DNA from: Candidatus Gastranaerophilales bacterium
GTDB taxonomy: Bacteria > Cyanobacteriota > Vampirovibrionia > Gastranaerophilales > Gastranaerophilaceae
Assembly: GCA_944324165.1 (NCBI GenBank)
Contig: CALUVG010000005.1
Span: forward strand, 1 to 64,000
Direction of reading: 5' to 3'
DNA: 64,000 nt
Shown: in pieces, positions 16,357-38,244 of the stretch
Layout: each line of letters begins with the position of its first letter
Position numbering within the stretch: the stretch's first letter is position 1
Position numbers and translations under genes: made by a program
Notes under the pieces: model-generated
The model's database searches: none
Told to the model about the DNA's origin: nothing
Seen by the model: the letters and a program-made list of their open reading frames with translations, nothing else

Positions 16357-19275
16357 TTAGAAAAGTGTTAACTGATTGACATTGTCCTTTGCTTCACGTT
16401 CTTTTTCAAATTTTGACAGTGTTAACAGGTCATTTTCAATTTTTGCTAAAAATGGCGAAATATCAAAATGTTCCAACTTTCCATACATATAACGTTTTTG
16501 CGCACGGCTTAAAAATAATCGCTGTTTTGCACGTGTCATTCCAACATACAAAAGTCTTCTTTCTTCTTCAATCTCTTCAGGAGATTGAGCGCGGTACAGC
16601 GGTAAAATTCCATTCTCAAGCCCGACAACAAATACACATTTAAATTCCAGCCCCTTAGATGAGTGCAATGTCATTAAAGAAATTCTGTCTGCGCGGGCAT
16701 CCAGAGTGTCGGATTCTTTTATAATAGAAACTTCATGTATAAATTCTTCGAGTGTATTGTAAGTCTTTGCAAATTCCTGCAAGTATTTAAAAACATAATC
16801 TTCAATACTGTCTTTAATATCTATCGGTAAACTTTCTAACTGTTCTGTTATCGGGCTATCGTCCGTTAAATTCTTCAATAATTTCCGTACGGAACTTTTG
16901 TCGCATAATAAATCATCAGATAGTTTTACATATGGCATGCCGGATCTGTTCAGTGCCTCAACAAGCGGCTGCACCTGTGCTGACGTCCTGTAAAGAATTG
17001 CAAAATCGCCAAAAGATAACTCATCTTCCTCACCGGTTGAACGATTTGAATCAATAGAGAAAAAGCTGTGTCCGCCAATTAGTTTTTCTATTGTACTTAC
17101 TACAAATTCAGCCTCCGCCTTATCTGTCGGGGCTGTGTGTATTGTAATCTTTTCGTGCGGTTTGTCATATTGCGAAATTATATTAAAACAGTCAATCATT
17201 TGATTAGAAGCATTTACAATGCTTTCTGTAGAACGGTAATTGTTTTTAAGATTTATTACTTTAGCATTCGGGTAGTCCTGTTTAAAATTATTGAAAAATT
17301 TGGAACTTCCGCCGCGAAACCCGTAAATTGCCTGATTTGGATCGCCTATTGCACAAATATTACCGTCTGAAGGCACAAGTAACCTTATTATTGTATACTG
17401 ATTTTCATCAATATCCTGATACTCATCAACAGAAATACTGCTGTATCTTCTCTGATAAGACTGTGCAATTTCAGGATGATTATTAAAAATCTTTACCGTC
17501 AATTTAATTAAATCATCAAACTCAAGAGTATCCGGCGGCAATTCACCATTATACAAAGACTTTTCCTGTTCGCTAATTACCTTAAAATTCTCGCTTATAC
17601 CGGCTAATTCATGATGCTCCTTCAGTATGGAAAGGCAGAGTGAGTGAAAGGTATGTATATTAATAAAACTTGCTTGTTCGGGCAAAAGTAGAGATAACCT
17701 TTCACGCATTTCCTGTGCAGCCTTGCGGGTAAAAGTTATGGCAAGACAATCCTGCGGTAAAAAATGTTTTTCTTTTATCAAATATGCAATACGTCTTGTC
17801 AAAACAGTAGTTTTTCCTGATCCCGGTCCGGCAACAATCAGCAGTTGTTTATCCGGACATTCTACGGCTGCTTTTTGAAACTGATCCAATTCTTTAGAGA
17901 AATTTGCATTCTCCTGCGGCTGTAAAACTCTTTGTGGAGTTGCAGGCAGCTGTGAAGAAAAAGTTTCTGTCTGTGGTTGTGTTTTCGGTTCTTCAGGAAT
18001 ATTAATATCAAGCTTTAGATTTATAAAATTTTTTTTTACAAGTTCAGAATCTTCAAATAATTTTATTACACCATACTCTCCGTCATAACCGGCATGTTTA
18101 ATAACATCCCCCTGACGGAGTCGTAAAATACCTTCTCCCAGCAATGGTGAATCCTTTGACAGTTCATCAACAGGAATATCCTGTAAAATTGATAATTCCG
18201 AACCAAATTTATTTATAAGACGTTCATATTCAAGTGTTACAGCCTTGCTGGATGTACCGACATTCATAAATTCTGAAAGAATTTCAGGTAAAGGTACAAG
18301 ACTGAAAACTTTTCCTGCAGTTTCCGGCTTAAATATATTATTACAATCGCGGTCTGCAAGTTCACAAACACGGTTTAGAACACCTATTGTCATCGGTTTG
18401 CCGCAAACAGGACAGATGCCGTTAAGTTTACGAGTTTCTTCAGGCGTCATACAAACATTGCATTTTCTGTGTCCGTCTTCATGATATTTGCCTTCCTCAG
18501 GGAAAAACTCTACTGTTCCTACATATCCTTCACCTGTTTTTAATGCTTTCATAATACTGTAATAATCAGTATTAGTATCAAACACCGTTGCCTCCCGCGC
18601 AAGTTTTGCAGGAGAATGCGCATCAGAATTGGATACAAGTCTGTATTTGTCAAGTTTTGATACCCGCCAATTCATCTCAGGATCAGATGAAAGTCCTGTT
18701 TCTACAGCAAAAATATGTTCTGCTAAATCACCATAACAGTCCTCTATTGAATCAAACCCTGATTTTGACCCGAGAACAGAAAACCACGGAGTCCAGATAT
18801 GTGCAGGTATTATATAAGATCCTTCGCCTGACTCAAGTGTTGTTTCCAAAAGGTTTCTGGAATCTAAGCCTAAAATAGGTCTGCCGTCAGATTTAATATT
18901 TCCTATTGCATCAAGTTTATTTCTAAAATTTTCGGCGGTTTGCATATCCGGCACAAATACAACATGATGAACTTTTCTTGTCTTATCCCACTTTTTATAT
19001 ATCGTTGAAATTTCAACCGAAAGTAAAAATCTTACAGGACAGCCATCAGGAAATATTTGTTTTTCAATCTCAGGTCTAAGCCGAAAAACACCTTCTTCAG
19101 CAGGGACAAGTTTTTCTTTTATCTCATTAAACCATGCAGGATGCGTAAAATCTCCGGTTGAAATTACGCTAAGCCCCTTTTTCTTCGCCCATAATGCAAG
19201 TTCTTCCAGATTACAATTTTTGCTTGTTGCACGGGAATACTTAGAATGTATGTGTAAGTCAGCATAAAAAAACAT
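16357..19275 (-). CDS. Endonuclease Q-like PHP domain fused to UvrD-type helicase
   Basis: 972 residues. The N-terminal ~320 residues match the EndoQ/YqxK (TIGR00375) type: PHP motif YADLHIHSKYS, TGDFTHPAW near 40, SNSDAHS near 216 and a CxxC...CxxC zinc finger (272-291). Characterised EndoQ enzymes nick DNA 5' of deaminated bases and AP sites. After a linker (430-455) comes a superfamily 1 helicase: Walker A AGPGSGKTT (~482), VDEYQDIDENQ, GDPNQAIYGFRGG, NNYRST, TLHSSKGLEF and LLYVGMTRAKQR. The helicase half (~505 residues) is shorter than PcrA. The frame extends 5 codons upstream to a TTG, but GGGGG before the ATG at 19275 fixes the start. It is probably a repair enzyme coupling incision to unwinding; the coupling is inference. 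Confidence 0.88.
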   Translation of the reverse strand: MFFYADLHIHSKYSRATSKNCNLEELALWAKKKGLSVISTGDFTHPAWFNEIKEKLVPAEEGVFRLRPEIEKQIFPDGCPVRFLLSVEISTIYKKWDKTRKVHHVVFVPDMQTAENFRNKLDAIGNIKSDGRPILGLDSRNLLETTLESGEGSYIIPAHIWTPWFSVLGSKSGFDSIEDCYGDLAEHIFAVETGLSSDPEMNWRVSKLDKYRLVSNSDAHSPAKLAREATVFDTNTDYYSIMKALKTGEGYVGTVEFFPEEGKYHEDGHRKCNVCMTPEETRKLNGICPVCGKPMTIGVLNRVCELADRDCNNIFKPETAGKVFSLVPLPEILSEFMNVGTSSKAVTLEYERLINKFGSELSILQDIPVDELSKDSPLLGEGILRLRQGDVIKHAGYDGEYGVIKLFEDSELVKKNFINLKLDINIPEEPKTQPQTETFSSQLPATPQRVLQPQENANFSKELDQFQKAAVECPDKQLLIVAGPGSGKTTVLTRRIAYLIKEKHFLPQDCLAITFTRKAAQEMRERLSLLLPEQASFINIHTFHSLCLSILKEHHELAGISENFKVISEQEKSLYNGELPPDTLEFDDLIKLTVKIFNNHPEIAQSYQRRYSSISVDEYQDIDENQYTIIRLLVPSDGNICAIGDPNQAIYGFRGGSSKFFNNFKQDYPNAKVINLKNNYRSTESIVNASNQMIDCFNIISQYDKPHEKITIHTAPTDKAEAEFVVSTIEKLIGGHSFFSIDSNRSTGEEDELSFGDFAILYRTSAQVQPLVEALNRSGMPYVKLSDDLLCDKSSVRKLLKNLTDDSPITEQLESLPIDIKDSIEDYVFKYLQEFAKTYNTLEEFIHEVSIIKESDTLDARADRISLMTLHSSKGLEFKCVFVVGLENGILPLYRAQSPEEIEEERRLLYVGMTRAKQRLFLSRAQKRYMYGKLEHFDISPFLAKIENDLLTLSKFEKEREAKDNVNQLTLF

Positions 19276-19475
19276 TATTGCCCCCTTCAATTTACAAGGA
19301 TTGTAACAAAAATATTTTTAGGCTGCAACGTAAAATGATCAATCTGATATATATATTAGAAAAAGGAAAGTACAAATAAGCCGGATAAAAATGTTAATTT
19401 TTATTACTCTAATAGCAAAAAAAATTTTTATGTAATTTAAAATAGTATTACACGAGTAAACAAGGAGTTTGCAAC

Positions 19476-22430
19476 ATGATTGATAAAGTGGGATTAAGTT
19501 ATGGTATAAAATTTAAAAATAATCAACAGCACAATACTAATAGATCATATACAAGTACACCGCAACAACTTAAAAATAACAATCAAATAAACTTCGGATA
19601 TTATTATCCTATAAGCTTTACCGCAAATAAGAGAAGTAATGTTCAAAAAATGACTCCGCTTGAAGTGCTTGAATACTGTTACACAAATTCCGCTACCAAT
19701 CTTGTTAATGAAGCCACCAAAATTGCGAAAGATAATCAGAACAGTGAAGTTAATCATTTTCATATATGGAAGGTAGAACTAAATCAACTTGATAAATATA
19801 TTGATGATTTAAACTCCGGCAGCAAACATCATTCGGATCTTAACGGTGACAGCATACCATCTTTTTTAGAGTCAATAACAGCAAACAGTCTATTTAAAGA
19901 TGAACAAACCAGAAAAAAATTCCAAAAATTAATAAAAGAAGAAAATAAAACTCTTGATAATATAATATCAAAATTCCCGAAAGACGAAAAAGTTAATAAT
20001 CCTAAACTCTCTGATGAACTCGTACGTGATATCTGGAGTCCGAGAGAAGAAGAGAATGAAAGAGTGTACGACTTTAATATCTTTGGAGCAACTTTCTACT
20101 CCGCAAATGAAAATGTTAAAAATTTTATTGACAATTTTGTAAACAAAACATCCGATTTAACCATGGTTGTCCACACACCTGTTAAGGAACGTTCTCATAT
20201 AAAAGATTATGATGAAAAAGCTAACAATGTATGGAAAAATCTTTCACTCGGAACAAATATGTTTATAACTTTTGACCATAAAAAAGTTAACCCCAACATG
20301 TTTATTACAAGTTTATACACTACAGCTCCGGAAGATACCGATATTACAGAGTTCAACCTAAGTGTGAAAGAACGTTATGTATTTGAAAAAGTCAAAGAAC
20401 TTGCAAAAAATAAAAACAAAAAACACGTCATCATAATGTATCCGACAAATATGCTTGTAAATTCGACGAGTCAGGAAGATAAAGAACAACAAATCTACGC
20501 ATATTCAGATGAATTCCGTAATTTAATGGGCAACATACCGCAAAATATTAAATTTATAATGTTTGACGCTAAAGATAACTATTTTGTTAATATGCAAAAT
20601 CCGGTTATTCAAGCGATGTACGAGAATTTCGGTGAACTTTCCGTGCCTGTTTTGAGTACCGAGCAGTTTGTAAAAGCTTTCAAAGAAGAACCTAAACTGA
20701 TGAAAGATATTAAAAAACCGTTTAGCAAAAAGGCTATTGAAAAAACTGTAGAAAGTTCAGCCCAGCTTGACGGTATATTCCCCGATAAAACATTGAAGTT
20801 AATGAAAAAGATGACATCTTATTACATTGATAAAAAAGAGATAAATGAAAAAGATGTAATAAATTATGTGAAAGAAGCAAAAGAATTGTTCAAAAAGAAT
20901 GATGATGACAGTTCTATAAACGTAATCTTTGATACAGAAAAAAGAATAAAAGATATCATAGGAAAAGATTCGACCAAAAAAGAGGCAGCCGCTATCGTAA
21001 AACAAATAAAATCAAACCATATGGGTACAAAAGGTATGATTATTTACTCTCAAGACAGTATGGCAGGCAGCGGCAGACGCTTTATAGCCAAAACTATAGC
21101 AGGAGAGGCAAAAGTACCTTATATAGAAATGAATGCCATGGATTTTGGTACAAAAGAAGTCGATATCTTTGGCGGAAGTCTTTTATCTCCGGAAGGATCT
21201 ATTAAAAAAATGTTCTCGCTTGTAAATACTCAGGCAGAAAGTAATTCTAATAAGTCCGCTGTGTTATTTATTGAAAATTTCGAATACTTCTCTATTGGAG
21301 AACTTATCTCTGAATACCAGCAAAAAGCAATGGCGCAGCTTCTGCGAGAAATGGACAATGCAGAACGCAAAGGTCTAAATATTCTCGTAATAGGTTCAGT
21401 TTCTGACCCGAGACTTATTGGCGAAGCAACTATGAAATCCTTTAAGTTTGTTGACAGTATTGAAGTTTCCTCCCCTGCATATAACGATAAAGAAAGAGCA
21501 GACATCATACAGGCTGCTTTAAAAGAAAATAAAATAAAAATTGCCGGCAATACACCTGAAGAAAAACAGGAAATTATAAACTCTATTGCAAAAACAACAG
21601 AAGGCTTTCCTTTCATTTATGTGAAAAATGTAGTTAAAAAAGCACAGTCCGTTGCCCTTGAACGCGGACATAAAGAAGTTACCAAAGGCGATTTTACAGA
21701 AGCATATATGCAAATAACAACAGGACGCCCTTCTACAAAACACATTGAACCGCATGAAAAAGACATTGTCACATCACACGAGTGCGGACATGCCATTAAT
21801 GCAGAAATAATGAATGATATCGCTAAAAAATATGGCAAACCGTGGCATAAATCTTCAAAAGTAAACTTCATAACCCTGGATCCGCGCGGTTATTACGGCG
21901 GTGCAATGTATCCTTTAGAAGATAATAATGATGAAAAATCATTTGAAAAACTGTTTGCCGATATTGTATGTGATTACGGCGGACATTCCTGCGAAAAATA
22001 CTTCTATGGAATTGACGGATCTTATGGCATATCAAGTGATTTAAACATGGCAACAACTTCTGCCGATTGGATGGTTAAAATTATGGGGCAAGGCGCAAAA
22101 ACAGGTAAACAATCGCTGCTCAAATTTGATAAAAACTTATCCGAAAAAATGAAAGAACAAATTGAAGAAGACAGGCATGTAATTCTTGAAAATGCTCTTA
22201 CAGTATCCGACTTGATTACAGAAACTTATGCTGATTTCAATCGTGAATTTACTAAAAAATATGCACATCTTGTAGGCACAGGCGACTGCCTTGTTGATGG
22301 CGATGTTTTCAGAAATGAACTTGCAGACTGGAAAGCCCGTCAGCCTAAAGAAAAACAAGAAGAAATTAACCTTATGGAAAAAATGATTCTGGAAATTATT
22401 GCTAAAACAAAAAAAGGTGTAATATATTAA
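19476..22430 (+). CDS. FtsH-like M41 metalloprotease with degenerate AAA+ domain and Clp-N-like N-terminus
   Basis: 984 residues with no FtsH-type membrane helices. In order: a leader with PISFTANKR (~45-55), a helical part resembling the Clp N-domain (60-100), a degenerate Clp-like AAA part (~200-480), an FtsH-like AAA module (~510-700) and an M41 peptidase. The peptidase keeps the zinc site H768-E-C-G-H772 and the third ligand D855 in SSDLNMAT. The ATPase is damaged: the Walker A position reads MAGSGRRF (529-536) with no Lys-Thr, Walker B reads VLFIENF (596-602), and the arginine-finger RPGRFDR is replaced by KSFKFVD. It is therefore likely a soluble protease with a pseudo-ATPase. AAGGAG supports the start. 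Substrate unknown. Confidence 0.85.
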   Translation: MIDKVGLSYGIKFKNNQQHNTNRSYTSTPQQLKNNNQINFGYYYPISFTANKRSNVQKMTPLEVLEYCYTNSATNLVNEATKIAKDNQNSEVNHFHIWKVELNQLDKYIDDLNSGSKHHSDLNGDSIPSFLESITANSLFKDEQTRKKFQKLIKEENKTLDNIISKFPKDEKVNNPKLSDELVRDIWSPREEENERVYDFNIFGATFYSANENVKNFIDNFVNKTSDLTMVVHTPVKERSHIKDYDEKANNVWKNLSLGTNMFITFDHKKVNPNMFITSLYTTAPEDTDITEFNLSVKERYVFEKVKELAKNKNKKHVIIMYPTNMLVNSTSQEDKEQQIYAYSDEFRNLMGNIPQNIKFIMFDAKDNYFVNMQNPVIQAMYENFGELSVPVLSTEQFVKAFKEEPKLMKDIKKPFSKKAIEKTVESSAQLDGIFPDKTLKLMKKMTSYYIDKKEINEKDVINYVKEAKELFKKNDDDSSINVIFDTEKRIKDIIGKDSTKKEAAAIVKQIKSNHMGTKGMIIYSQDSMAGSGRRFIAKTIAGEAKVPYIEMNAMDFGTKEVDIFGGSLLSPEGSIKKMFSLVNTQAESNSNKSAVLFIENFEYFSIGELISEYQQKAMAQLLREMDNAERKGLNILVIGSVSDPRLIGEATMKSFKFVDSIEVSSPAYNDKERADIIQAALKENKIKIAGNTPEEKQEIINSIAKTTEGFPFIYVKNVVKKAQSVALERGHKEVTKGDFTEAYMQITTGRPSTKHIEPHEKDIVTSHECGHAINAEIMNDIAKKYGKPWHKSSKVNFITLDPRGYYGGAMYPLEDNNDEKSFEKLFADIVCDYGGHSCEKYFYGIDGSYGISSDLNMATTSADWMVKIMGQGAKTGKQSLLKFDKNLSEKMKEQIEEDRHVILENALTVSDLITETYADFNREFTKKYAHLVGTGDCLVDGDVFRNELADWKARQPKEKQEEINLMEKMILEIIAKTKKGVIY

Positions 22431-22557: not shown

Positions 22558-22773
22558 ATGGCAGAAGAAAAAAAAGTTCTGGATATGGAAGATTTAATGA
22601 TTGATTACGGTGAAATGACCAGTTTCGATTTCAATTCATTAGATTATAAAGAAACAAGAGAGTTACAGAGAGCAATAGACAGCGAATATGCAAATCAGCC
22701 GCCAACATTTAAATATGGCAATTTTGATATTCTTGATATGCTGCACTCTTTTATTACACGAAAAGAATCTTAA
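22558..22773 (+). CDS. Small acidic hypothetical protein
   Basis: 71 residues, acidic (MAEEKKVLDMEDLMIDYGEM), with a predicted amphipathic helix around KETRELQRAIDSEY and a C-terminal ILDMLHSFITRK helix. No known family is recognised. The ribosome site AAGGAG (22543-22548) is well placed. It is the first gene of a two-gene unit behind a sigma-28-like promoter, which suggests a role tied to that regulon. This link is inference. Confidence 0.7.
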   Translation: MAEEKKVLDMEDLMIDYGEMTSFDFNSLDYKETRELQRAIDSEYANQPPTFKYGNFDILDMLHSFITRKES

Positions 22774-22791: not shown

Positions 22792-22998
22792 ATGAAAGAC
22801 GCTAAAGAATTATTCGATAAACTATGCATGTCTCCGGACTGGGGCGAATTGCCTCCGAAACCATTTGTAAGACAATATAAGGATTTGGAAACTCTCACCG
22901 CAGAACTTGAAGGCATAAAAAACAGAATTGACGAACTGAAAGCCAAAGAATGGAATATTCTTAAGCGTATGCAATTTAATAAAGAGGGGTTTCACTAA
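22792..22998 (+). CDS. Small coiled-coil hypothetical protein
   Basis: 68 residues: an N-terminal part with SPDWGELPPKPFVRQY, then a heptad-like helix LETLTAELEGIKNRIDELKAKEW that should form a coiled coil. It starts 19 bp after the preceding stop with its own GGAGAG site, so the two are co-transcribed and end at the terminator at 23025. The function is unknown; it could be an adaptor partner of the upstream protein. Confidence 0.7.
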   Translation: MKDAKELFDKLCMSPDWGELPPKPFVRQYKDLETLTAELEGIKNRIDELKAKEWNILKRMQFNKEGFH

Positions 22999-37474: not shown

Positions 37475-37620
37475 AATTTTATCTCCCTTCGTATAAAACT
37501 TATTCCGATTAAATTTTAGCACGTAAAAAAGAGAAATTAAACTATTTAAAAATTAAATTTTCTTAACAAAAATGTTAGTAAAGGCAATAAATTAGTTTGT
37601 CTTTTTTTATTAAGACTGCT

Positions 37621-38244
37621 ATGAATATTAATGCTTTACAGAATAATTACTATTGCGGACATCCCCAACCGATCACATCAGGCAAGAAACAATCACCTTC
37701 TTTTAAAGGAAACGGTGTTCAGAGATTAACCAATATAAATATTGGAATGATGCCACAGGGATTTATAGGTGAAGTTGCTCTGTTTAATAAAAAACTGCAC
37801 AAAAATGTGTTTGTAAATGTGTTTAAAGAGTTTGACTGCGGTGATGAAATTTACAGCCTTAAAGATGAAAATAATCAACCAATTGGGAAATTGGCGCTAA
37901 GGATAAAAAAATATTTTGACTATGATAAATCTATTAATAAAGATGACCCAAGTCACGTTTATGTCGTTGATTTGTACAATTTTTCACGAAAAGACACTCC
38001 TTTTGCAAACCAAAATACCGATGATTACAGCCATGTTGGTATAAGACTTTTACAAATAGCCCAGAGACGGAGTGATGAGGCTCAATGCAGCGGCAACATT
38101 AAACTTAATGCAATGCCGGAAGCGTTGTCTTTTTATCGCAGTAAAATCGGAATGCAGAGTGATCCGGATGCATTCAATAAAAATTTTCTCTTTCTTCCAT
38201 GGGACAAAAAAGAGACGCTGTCCAGAATGTATGACGGATTATAA
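37621..38244 (+). CDS. GNAT-like hypothetical protein with N-terminal SFKG motif
   Basis: 207 residues. The N-terminus (MNINALQNNYYCGHPQP...SPSFKGNGVQ) is polar and carries an SFKG motif like those in Pgi (SFTG) and the FtsH-like protein (SFTA). The C-terminal half has the acetyltransferase pattern: YVVDLYNF strand, VGIRLLQIAQRRSDEA helix where acetyl-CoA pyrophosphate would bind, and ALSFYRSKIGM. It may be an N-acetyltransferase or a relict of one. An upstream in-frame TTG (37597) is a less likely start. There is no strong ribosome site. Confidence 0.55.
   Translation: MNINALQNNYYCGHPQPITSGKKQSPSFKGNGVQRLTNINIGMMPQGFIGEVALFNKKLHKNVFVNVFKEFDCGDEIYSLKDENNQPIGKLALRIKKYFDYDKSINKDDPSHVYVVDLYNFSRKDTPFANQNTDDYSHVGIRLLQIAQRRSDEAQCSGNIKLNAMPEALSFYRSKIGMQSDPDAFNKNFLFLPWDKKETLSRMYDGL

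Follow-up and report, generated by a model that had tools for sequence, protein, structure and literature searches.

A soluble FtsH-like zinc peptidase family with rewritten ATPase motifs in Gastranaerophilales

The use of ATP is regarded as the core of AAA proteases, and the Walker A lysine and the Walker B glutamate are needed for its hydrolysis. The locus described here raises the question of what an FtsH-like protease does when its zinc site is kept and its motor residues are replaced. The gene (19476–22430, + strand) lies in a 64,000-bp stretch of a contig (hereafter, the window, meaning the whole stretch of DNA analyzed) from a Candidatus Gastranaerophilales bacterium, a gut-dwelling relative of the cyanobacteria. 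It is an intact ORF with AAGGAG just 5' of its ATG start and, based on the ORF and its homology, encodes a soluble FtsH-like zinc peptidase of 984 aa with pseudo-ATPase domains. Our best reading is that this protein is probably a protease that works without ATP hydrolysis.

Five parts follow one another from the N- to the C-terminus, all encoded on the + strand. An N/K-rich leader (residues 1–54; 19476–19637), which closes with a motif rich in aromatic residues (of the type [IV][SN]F[TGK][AG]), is followed by Clp N-domain-like helices (about residues 55–128; 19638–19859), of which one half-repeat was recognized, and by a degenerate ClpC-D1-like AAA domain without a P-loop (about residues 215–485; 20118–20930). 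An FtsH-type AAA domain (residues 489–745; 20940–21710) with substituted Walker A, Walker B, sensor 1, and arginine-finger residues, and an M41 zinc peptidase (residues 757–929; 21744–22262) with catalytic E769, complete the protein. Both C-terminal domains exceed the curated Pfam cut-offs (AAA: residues 531–658, E 6.9e-11; Peptidase_M41: residues 757–929, E 1.5e-13). The nearest solved sequences are FtsH structures (6gcn, E 1.4e-23), and homology to FtsH spans residues 490–919 in the AAA-M41 order; the FtsH equivalog model (NCBIfam TIGR01241) is not reached (105.1 bits vs. a cut-off of 600). Structure models of the two halves were poor (mean pLDDT 53.2 for the C-terminal and 47.4 for the N-terminal half). 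The best Foldseek match of the C-terminal model was the FtsH structure 2ce7 (E 7.9e-16), with an rmsd near 18 Å over the whole, and the model therefore supports the AAA fold only.

Motif positions were assigned by alignment with canonical FtsH proteins of the same order, following the usual AAA correspondences. The zinc site is complete in the window protein (H768, E769, and H772 in HECGH, and D855), whereas the Walker A K/T positions are occupied by R534/R535, the Walker B D/E positions by E600/N601, the arginine positions of the second region of homology (SRH) by K654/K657, and the sensor-1 Asn position by S643. The rewritten P-loop comprises residues 524–536 (21045–21083, +) with Arg534 at the Walker lysine position, and the rewritten Walker B comprises residues 598–605 (FIENFEYF; 21267–21290, +). 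These observations agree with the original prediction, made from the DNA of the window, that the M41 zinc ligands are intact and that the Walker A lysine-threonine, the Walker B acidic pair, and the arginine finger are all replaced. A motif scan found no GxxxxGK[ST] anywhere in the 984-aa protein; functional Walker residues located elsewhere, which the prediction had named as the observation that would speak against it, were thus not found at this level.

Residues were counted in 51 relatives (loci L003–L015, L037–L059, and L065–L079), drawn one per genome from 51 of the 117 strongly matching genomes, after excluding a second entry of the window gene (L002), a peptidase fragment (L016), and loci with scores identical to those already included (L033–L036). 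H768, E769, G771, H772, and D855 (HExGH plus Asp) are retained in 51/51 relatives. Arg replaces the Walker A lysine in all 51, and the Walker B glutamate has become Asn (44), Lys (5), or His (2). GxxxxGK[ST] is present in 12/12 soluble relatives and 10/10 canonical FtsH proteins and was found in 0/51 of this motor-less set. A point against complete motor loss is that a few rows still have motor residues: Asn at the sensor-1 position in 7/51, Arg at 654 in 3/51, and Arg at 657 in 2/51, with no row having Arg at both. Since the same replacements are fixed across a large family, they are neither chance nor a sequencing defect.

Selection on the two modules was compared in six pairs using a Nei-Gojobori count, in which several dS values were saturated. 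The dN of the AAA part ranged from 0.017 to 0.078 and was below that of M41 in five of the six pairs; L005/L007 was the one pair with the peptidase more constrained. AAA values were dN 0.017 and dS 0.52 for L009/L044, and dN 0.029 and dS 0.49 for L041/L043; AAA dN/dS was near 0.03 and 0.06 in the two least saturated pairs. These values indicate strong purifying selection on the pseudo-AAA domain, about as strong as on the peptidase. A sequencing error or a decaying gene is ruled out by the low dN, together with the identical replacements in 51 relatives. The order of the domains, retention of the zinc site, loss of the hydrolysis lysine and glutamate, and selection on both modules are all established at the level of sequence.

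The N-terminal half had been described as resembling a Clp N-domain and a degenerate AAA. A likeness to Clp proteins emerged when a profile of 34 relatives was used, although the single sequence was insufficient, a Pfam search with it yielding nothing convincing in this half. The best 37 PDB sequences matched by the profile were all Clp/Hsp104 (best E 8.1e-8, to the ClpC N-domain), with profile columns 12–55 matching the Clp N-domain and columns 333–440 the small domain (lid) of ClpC D1. Among individual members, Pfam Clp_N matched weakly in 1/34 (E 0.016) and AAA_lid_9 weakly in 5/34 (best E 0.009). The N-half was found in 31/194 genomes of the class and, as a profile, in 62/386 genomes of the phylum, where all matches fell within two families of this order.

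The predicted absence of membrane helices was borne out by hydropathy, which revealed no transmembrane helix or N-terminal anchor in the window protein. The best 19-residue Kyte-Doolittle mean was <1.6 in 50/51 relatives vs. 2.46–2.98 in 10/10 canonical FtsH proteins; L076 alone does not stay below this value (at residue 13), probably because its start was called too early. The leader sequence is poorly conserved, and its end motif recurs among the relatives. Unrelated proteins in the order also carry a short leader ending in an [ILVP][SNT]F[TKG][GAS]-type motif, at 37597–38244 in the window and at L082:5004–5585, L084:18258–18743, L085:1963–2412, L100:2319–4043, and L114:2964–4232, besides 19476–19637. 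Within residues 1–60 of 641 ORFs (38,460 residues), the pattern was counted 20 times, some of these plainly by chance, vs. 25 times in about 141,000 residues past position 120. A secretion signal explaining the loss of ATP use was considered for the leader and rejected: relatives with an intact ATPase have similar leaders, and the same pattern is N-terminal on proteins matching FliH, a ribonucleotide reductase barrel, and DUF2023.

Compared to known systems, the protein has in common with FtsH the AAA-M41 order and the zinc ligands H, H, and D, but it differs in lacking the transmembrane anchor, Walker A/B, and the SRH arginine pair, and in carrying the extra Clp-N-like and pseudo-D1 half. As judged from these features, the family is an FtsH variant, related by descent and by its peptidase, in which the anchor and motor features fail. 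ClpC and ClpB (Hsp100) place an N-domain before D1, an order that the Clp-N-like and pseudo-D1 parts resemble. However, Hsp100 proteins have Walker motifs in both D1 and D2, and they dock on ClpP, whereas the second AAA of the window protein is of FtsH type and fused to its own M41 domain. Selection likewise maintains the plant FtsHi proteins, FtsH relatives in which one of two activities has been lost; two papers describe their HEXXH as lost or changed (PMC8197885, PMC9020784). They are membrane proteins and the mirror image of the window family, which keeps HExGH and loses the ATPase, so that the protein is unlike an FtsHi-type pseudoprotease. A family of this kind did not come up in a literature search on Gastranaerophilales proteases and on FtsH/M41 proteins with an inactive ATPase, most subscription papers being outside its scope.

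The origin of the family was addressed with a quick maximum-likelihood tree of 54 of 73 aligned rows (19 were dropped for speed), with motif columns removed and SH-aLRT values in place of bootstraps. All 36 motor-less rows formed a single clade (SH-aLRT 100), the six canonical FtsH proteins formed a separate clade (SH-aLRT 100), and soluble relatives with an intact motor were placed between them and were not monophyletic. These relatives from within the order (L017, L019, L020, L022, L023, and L060–L064) are likewise soluble and FtsH-like and have M41, and most carry a leader resembling that of the motor-less form, but they retain GTGKT and IDE at Walker A/B and are shorter. The pseudo-D1 of the motor-less clade is also found in the larger ones (L017, L020, and L023, and the partly decayed L018 and L021), with an hhalign probability of 98.9 (E 1.1e-17) over N-half profile columns 183–452, whereas the Clp-N-like columns before 183 lie outside the match. 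The family is best read as having descended from FtsH-like proteases of this order that were themselves soluble, and it belongs to FtsH by descent only. The intact-motor soluble relatives and the shared pseudo-D1 imply that the anchor was lost first and the motor later, once, in one clade. The tree further suggests that the pseudo-D1 arose first in a soluble FtsH-like protein, and that the Clp-N-like part and the loss of the motor came in the motor-less clade. In L018 and L021, the P-loop is intact (GSGKT/GSGKS) and Walker B (IDDFD/INDFD) and the arginine fingers are altered, which may mark motor loss beginning a second time, independently.

Taken with the residue and selection data, the explanation we favor, with somewhat better than even confidence, is a soluble M41 zinc endopeptidase that probably forms hexamers, does not hydrolyze ATP, and uses its pseudo-ATPase AAA modules as scaffolds or gates; a protease working without ATP was one of the two possibilities raised in the original prediction. 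The AAA modules would form a ring scaffold and a gate above the peptidase chamber, no ATP being burned, with Arg534 perhaps occupying the former phosphate pocket. The Clp-N-like domain would recognize substrates or adaptors, and cleavage would be limited to peptides, unfolded chains, and flexible segments that need no ATP-driven unfolding. According to one paper, FtsH itself is not a robust unfoldase and spends ATP on the translocation of unfolded substrates (PMC8197885); losing the motor may therefore have been less costly than for a strong unfoldase. More tentatively, and short of an even chance in our estimate, the family may be an energy-free AAA protease lineage whose pseudo-AAA modules stack as two rings, are locked by the invariant arginine, and form a passive or ligand-operated gate over a live M41 chamber, with the Clp-type N-domain selecting substrates.

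The conservation of the altered P-loop bears on a different role for the AAA domain. In the motor-less family, G531, G533, and R534 of the pseudo-P-loop (GxGR) and G640-S641 are invariant, and among the regions compared conservation is highest in 26 residues spanning the P-loop, with a mean majority-residue share of 0.753 vs. 0.655 in M41. As read from the alignment, the motor site is rewritten rather than merely lost, and its invariant residues could mark a changed nucleotide site rather than none. A nucleotide-sensing pseudo-ATPase, in which the P-loop binds ATP, ADP, or another nucleotide without hydrolysis and binding opens or closes the protease, would account for these residues. However, with the Walker lysine and the Walker B glutamate gone throughout, the sensor-1 Asn gone in 44/51 relatives (persisting in 7/51), and a loop longer than in FtsH (SQDxxAGSGRR vs. 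GPPGTGKT), we consider nucleotide sensing rather unlikely, if a serious alternative.

Alternatively, the protein may sit in a mixed ring in which translocation is supplied by another subunit that hydrolyzes ATP, be it canonical FtsH, a Clp ATPase, or a soluble M41 paralogue with an active motor. Pseudo-subunits of the FtsHi type are discussed for plant FtsH complexes in one paper (PMC9020784), and a soluble active paralogue accompanies the dead form in at least 9/117 genomes, further-paralogue counts being lower bounds as the survey scored two candidates per genome. The original prediction had offered an active partner as an alternative and proposed a search of the genome for an active paralogue, but the source genome (G000; 2,052,190 bases in 55 contigs) lends this alternative no support. 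Its two M41 genes are the window gene and a canonical membrane FtsH (a 635-codon frame on contig 39), with no soluble active M41 partner. Two ClpP genes are also present in G000, and Clp_N was recognized in two long frames (843 and 881 codons) and, repeatedly, in a frame of 454 codons. Six Clp_N matches make up most of this last frame (L147; contig 6, 39800–42200), in which no ATPase domain was seen; it adjoins a frame that presumably resembles tilS.

Genome context likewise revealed no conserved operon partner across genera. In 11 contexts compared, no gene family occurred within 7 kb of the gene in more than four; the most frequent, an outer-membrane efflux protein gene, was confined to the genus, and a few families recurred in two or three contexts from other genera. 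A 71-aa ORF (22558–22773) lies 3' of the protease gene in the genus and in L056, and it and a 68-aa ORF (22792–22998) are shared with genus g48. The 71-aa and 68-aa ORFs occur in 155/241 and 78/146 genomes of the order, where in most cases the protease is either missing or located elsewhere. The 71-aa ORF was thus ruled out as a partner gene and is taken for a neighbor only; the two ORFs lie near one another in many genomes across the order. With no linked partner across genera other than this pair, and the other M41 protein of G000 membrane-bound, a mixed ring appears improbable. On the other side of the gene, a 977-aa frame (16357–19290, − strand) combines a PHP-domain-like N-terminus, with weak PHP matches, and a UvrD helicase.

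Two further alternatives stand much lower in our estimate than the motor-less protease we favor. Cryptic hydrolysis by way of Arg534, Glu600/Glu603, or other non-canonical residues could draw on the acidic position 600 in 46/51 relatives (E 38, D 8), but it is very improbable with the Walker B glutamate in 0/51 and Lys at 654 and at 657 in 41/51 each. That the peptidase is inactive too, leaving a pure scaffold despite the intact zinc site, is just as hard to credit given four zinc-site residues invariant in 51/51 and further invariant peptidase residues (L801-R804, G835-G836, and G851-I852).

The family may matter beyond this order as a large natural case in which the cutting site is kept, hydrolysis is discarded, and the AAA fold remains under strong selection. 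It would thereby form the counterpart of plant FtsHi, in which the ring is kept and the cutting site lost, and a ready experiment on what a ring does beyond pulling, including gating, assembly, and substrate choice. The intact-motor soluble relatives of the order would provide natural controls and the order of events.

The gene is missing from most genomes of the order: matches of at least 290 bits were found in 117/383, and the next class starts at 175 bits. Among the matches listed, G183, G382, and G317 contain a stop inside the match, and some copies are therefore damaged or misread. Within genus g48, the gene precedes the small-ORF pair in G065, only both of its ends are found at the corresponding place in G186, and the pair stands without the gene in G084. 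The G186 sequence (L145, contig 6) is a gene remnant with an N-terminal part and the last 60 residues, the middle being gone. Absence from most genomes together with this remnant implies that the protease function is dispensable. Horizontal transfer was judged a less likely cause of the patchy distribution, as the present/remnant/absent series in g48 fits loss.

A search of viral contigs for relatives found none. Twenty-six phage records matched, with identity always <60% and query coverage always <80%, and the best 10 of these 26 (H1–H10) matched the ordinary FtsH part only. Several of the 10 resemble ordinary cellular FtsH and possibly represent host contamination.
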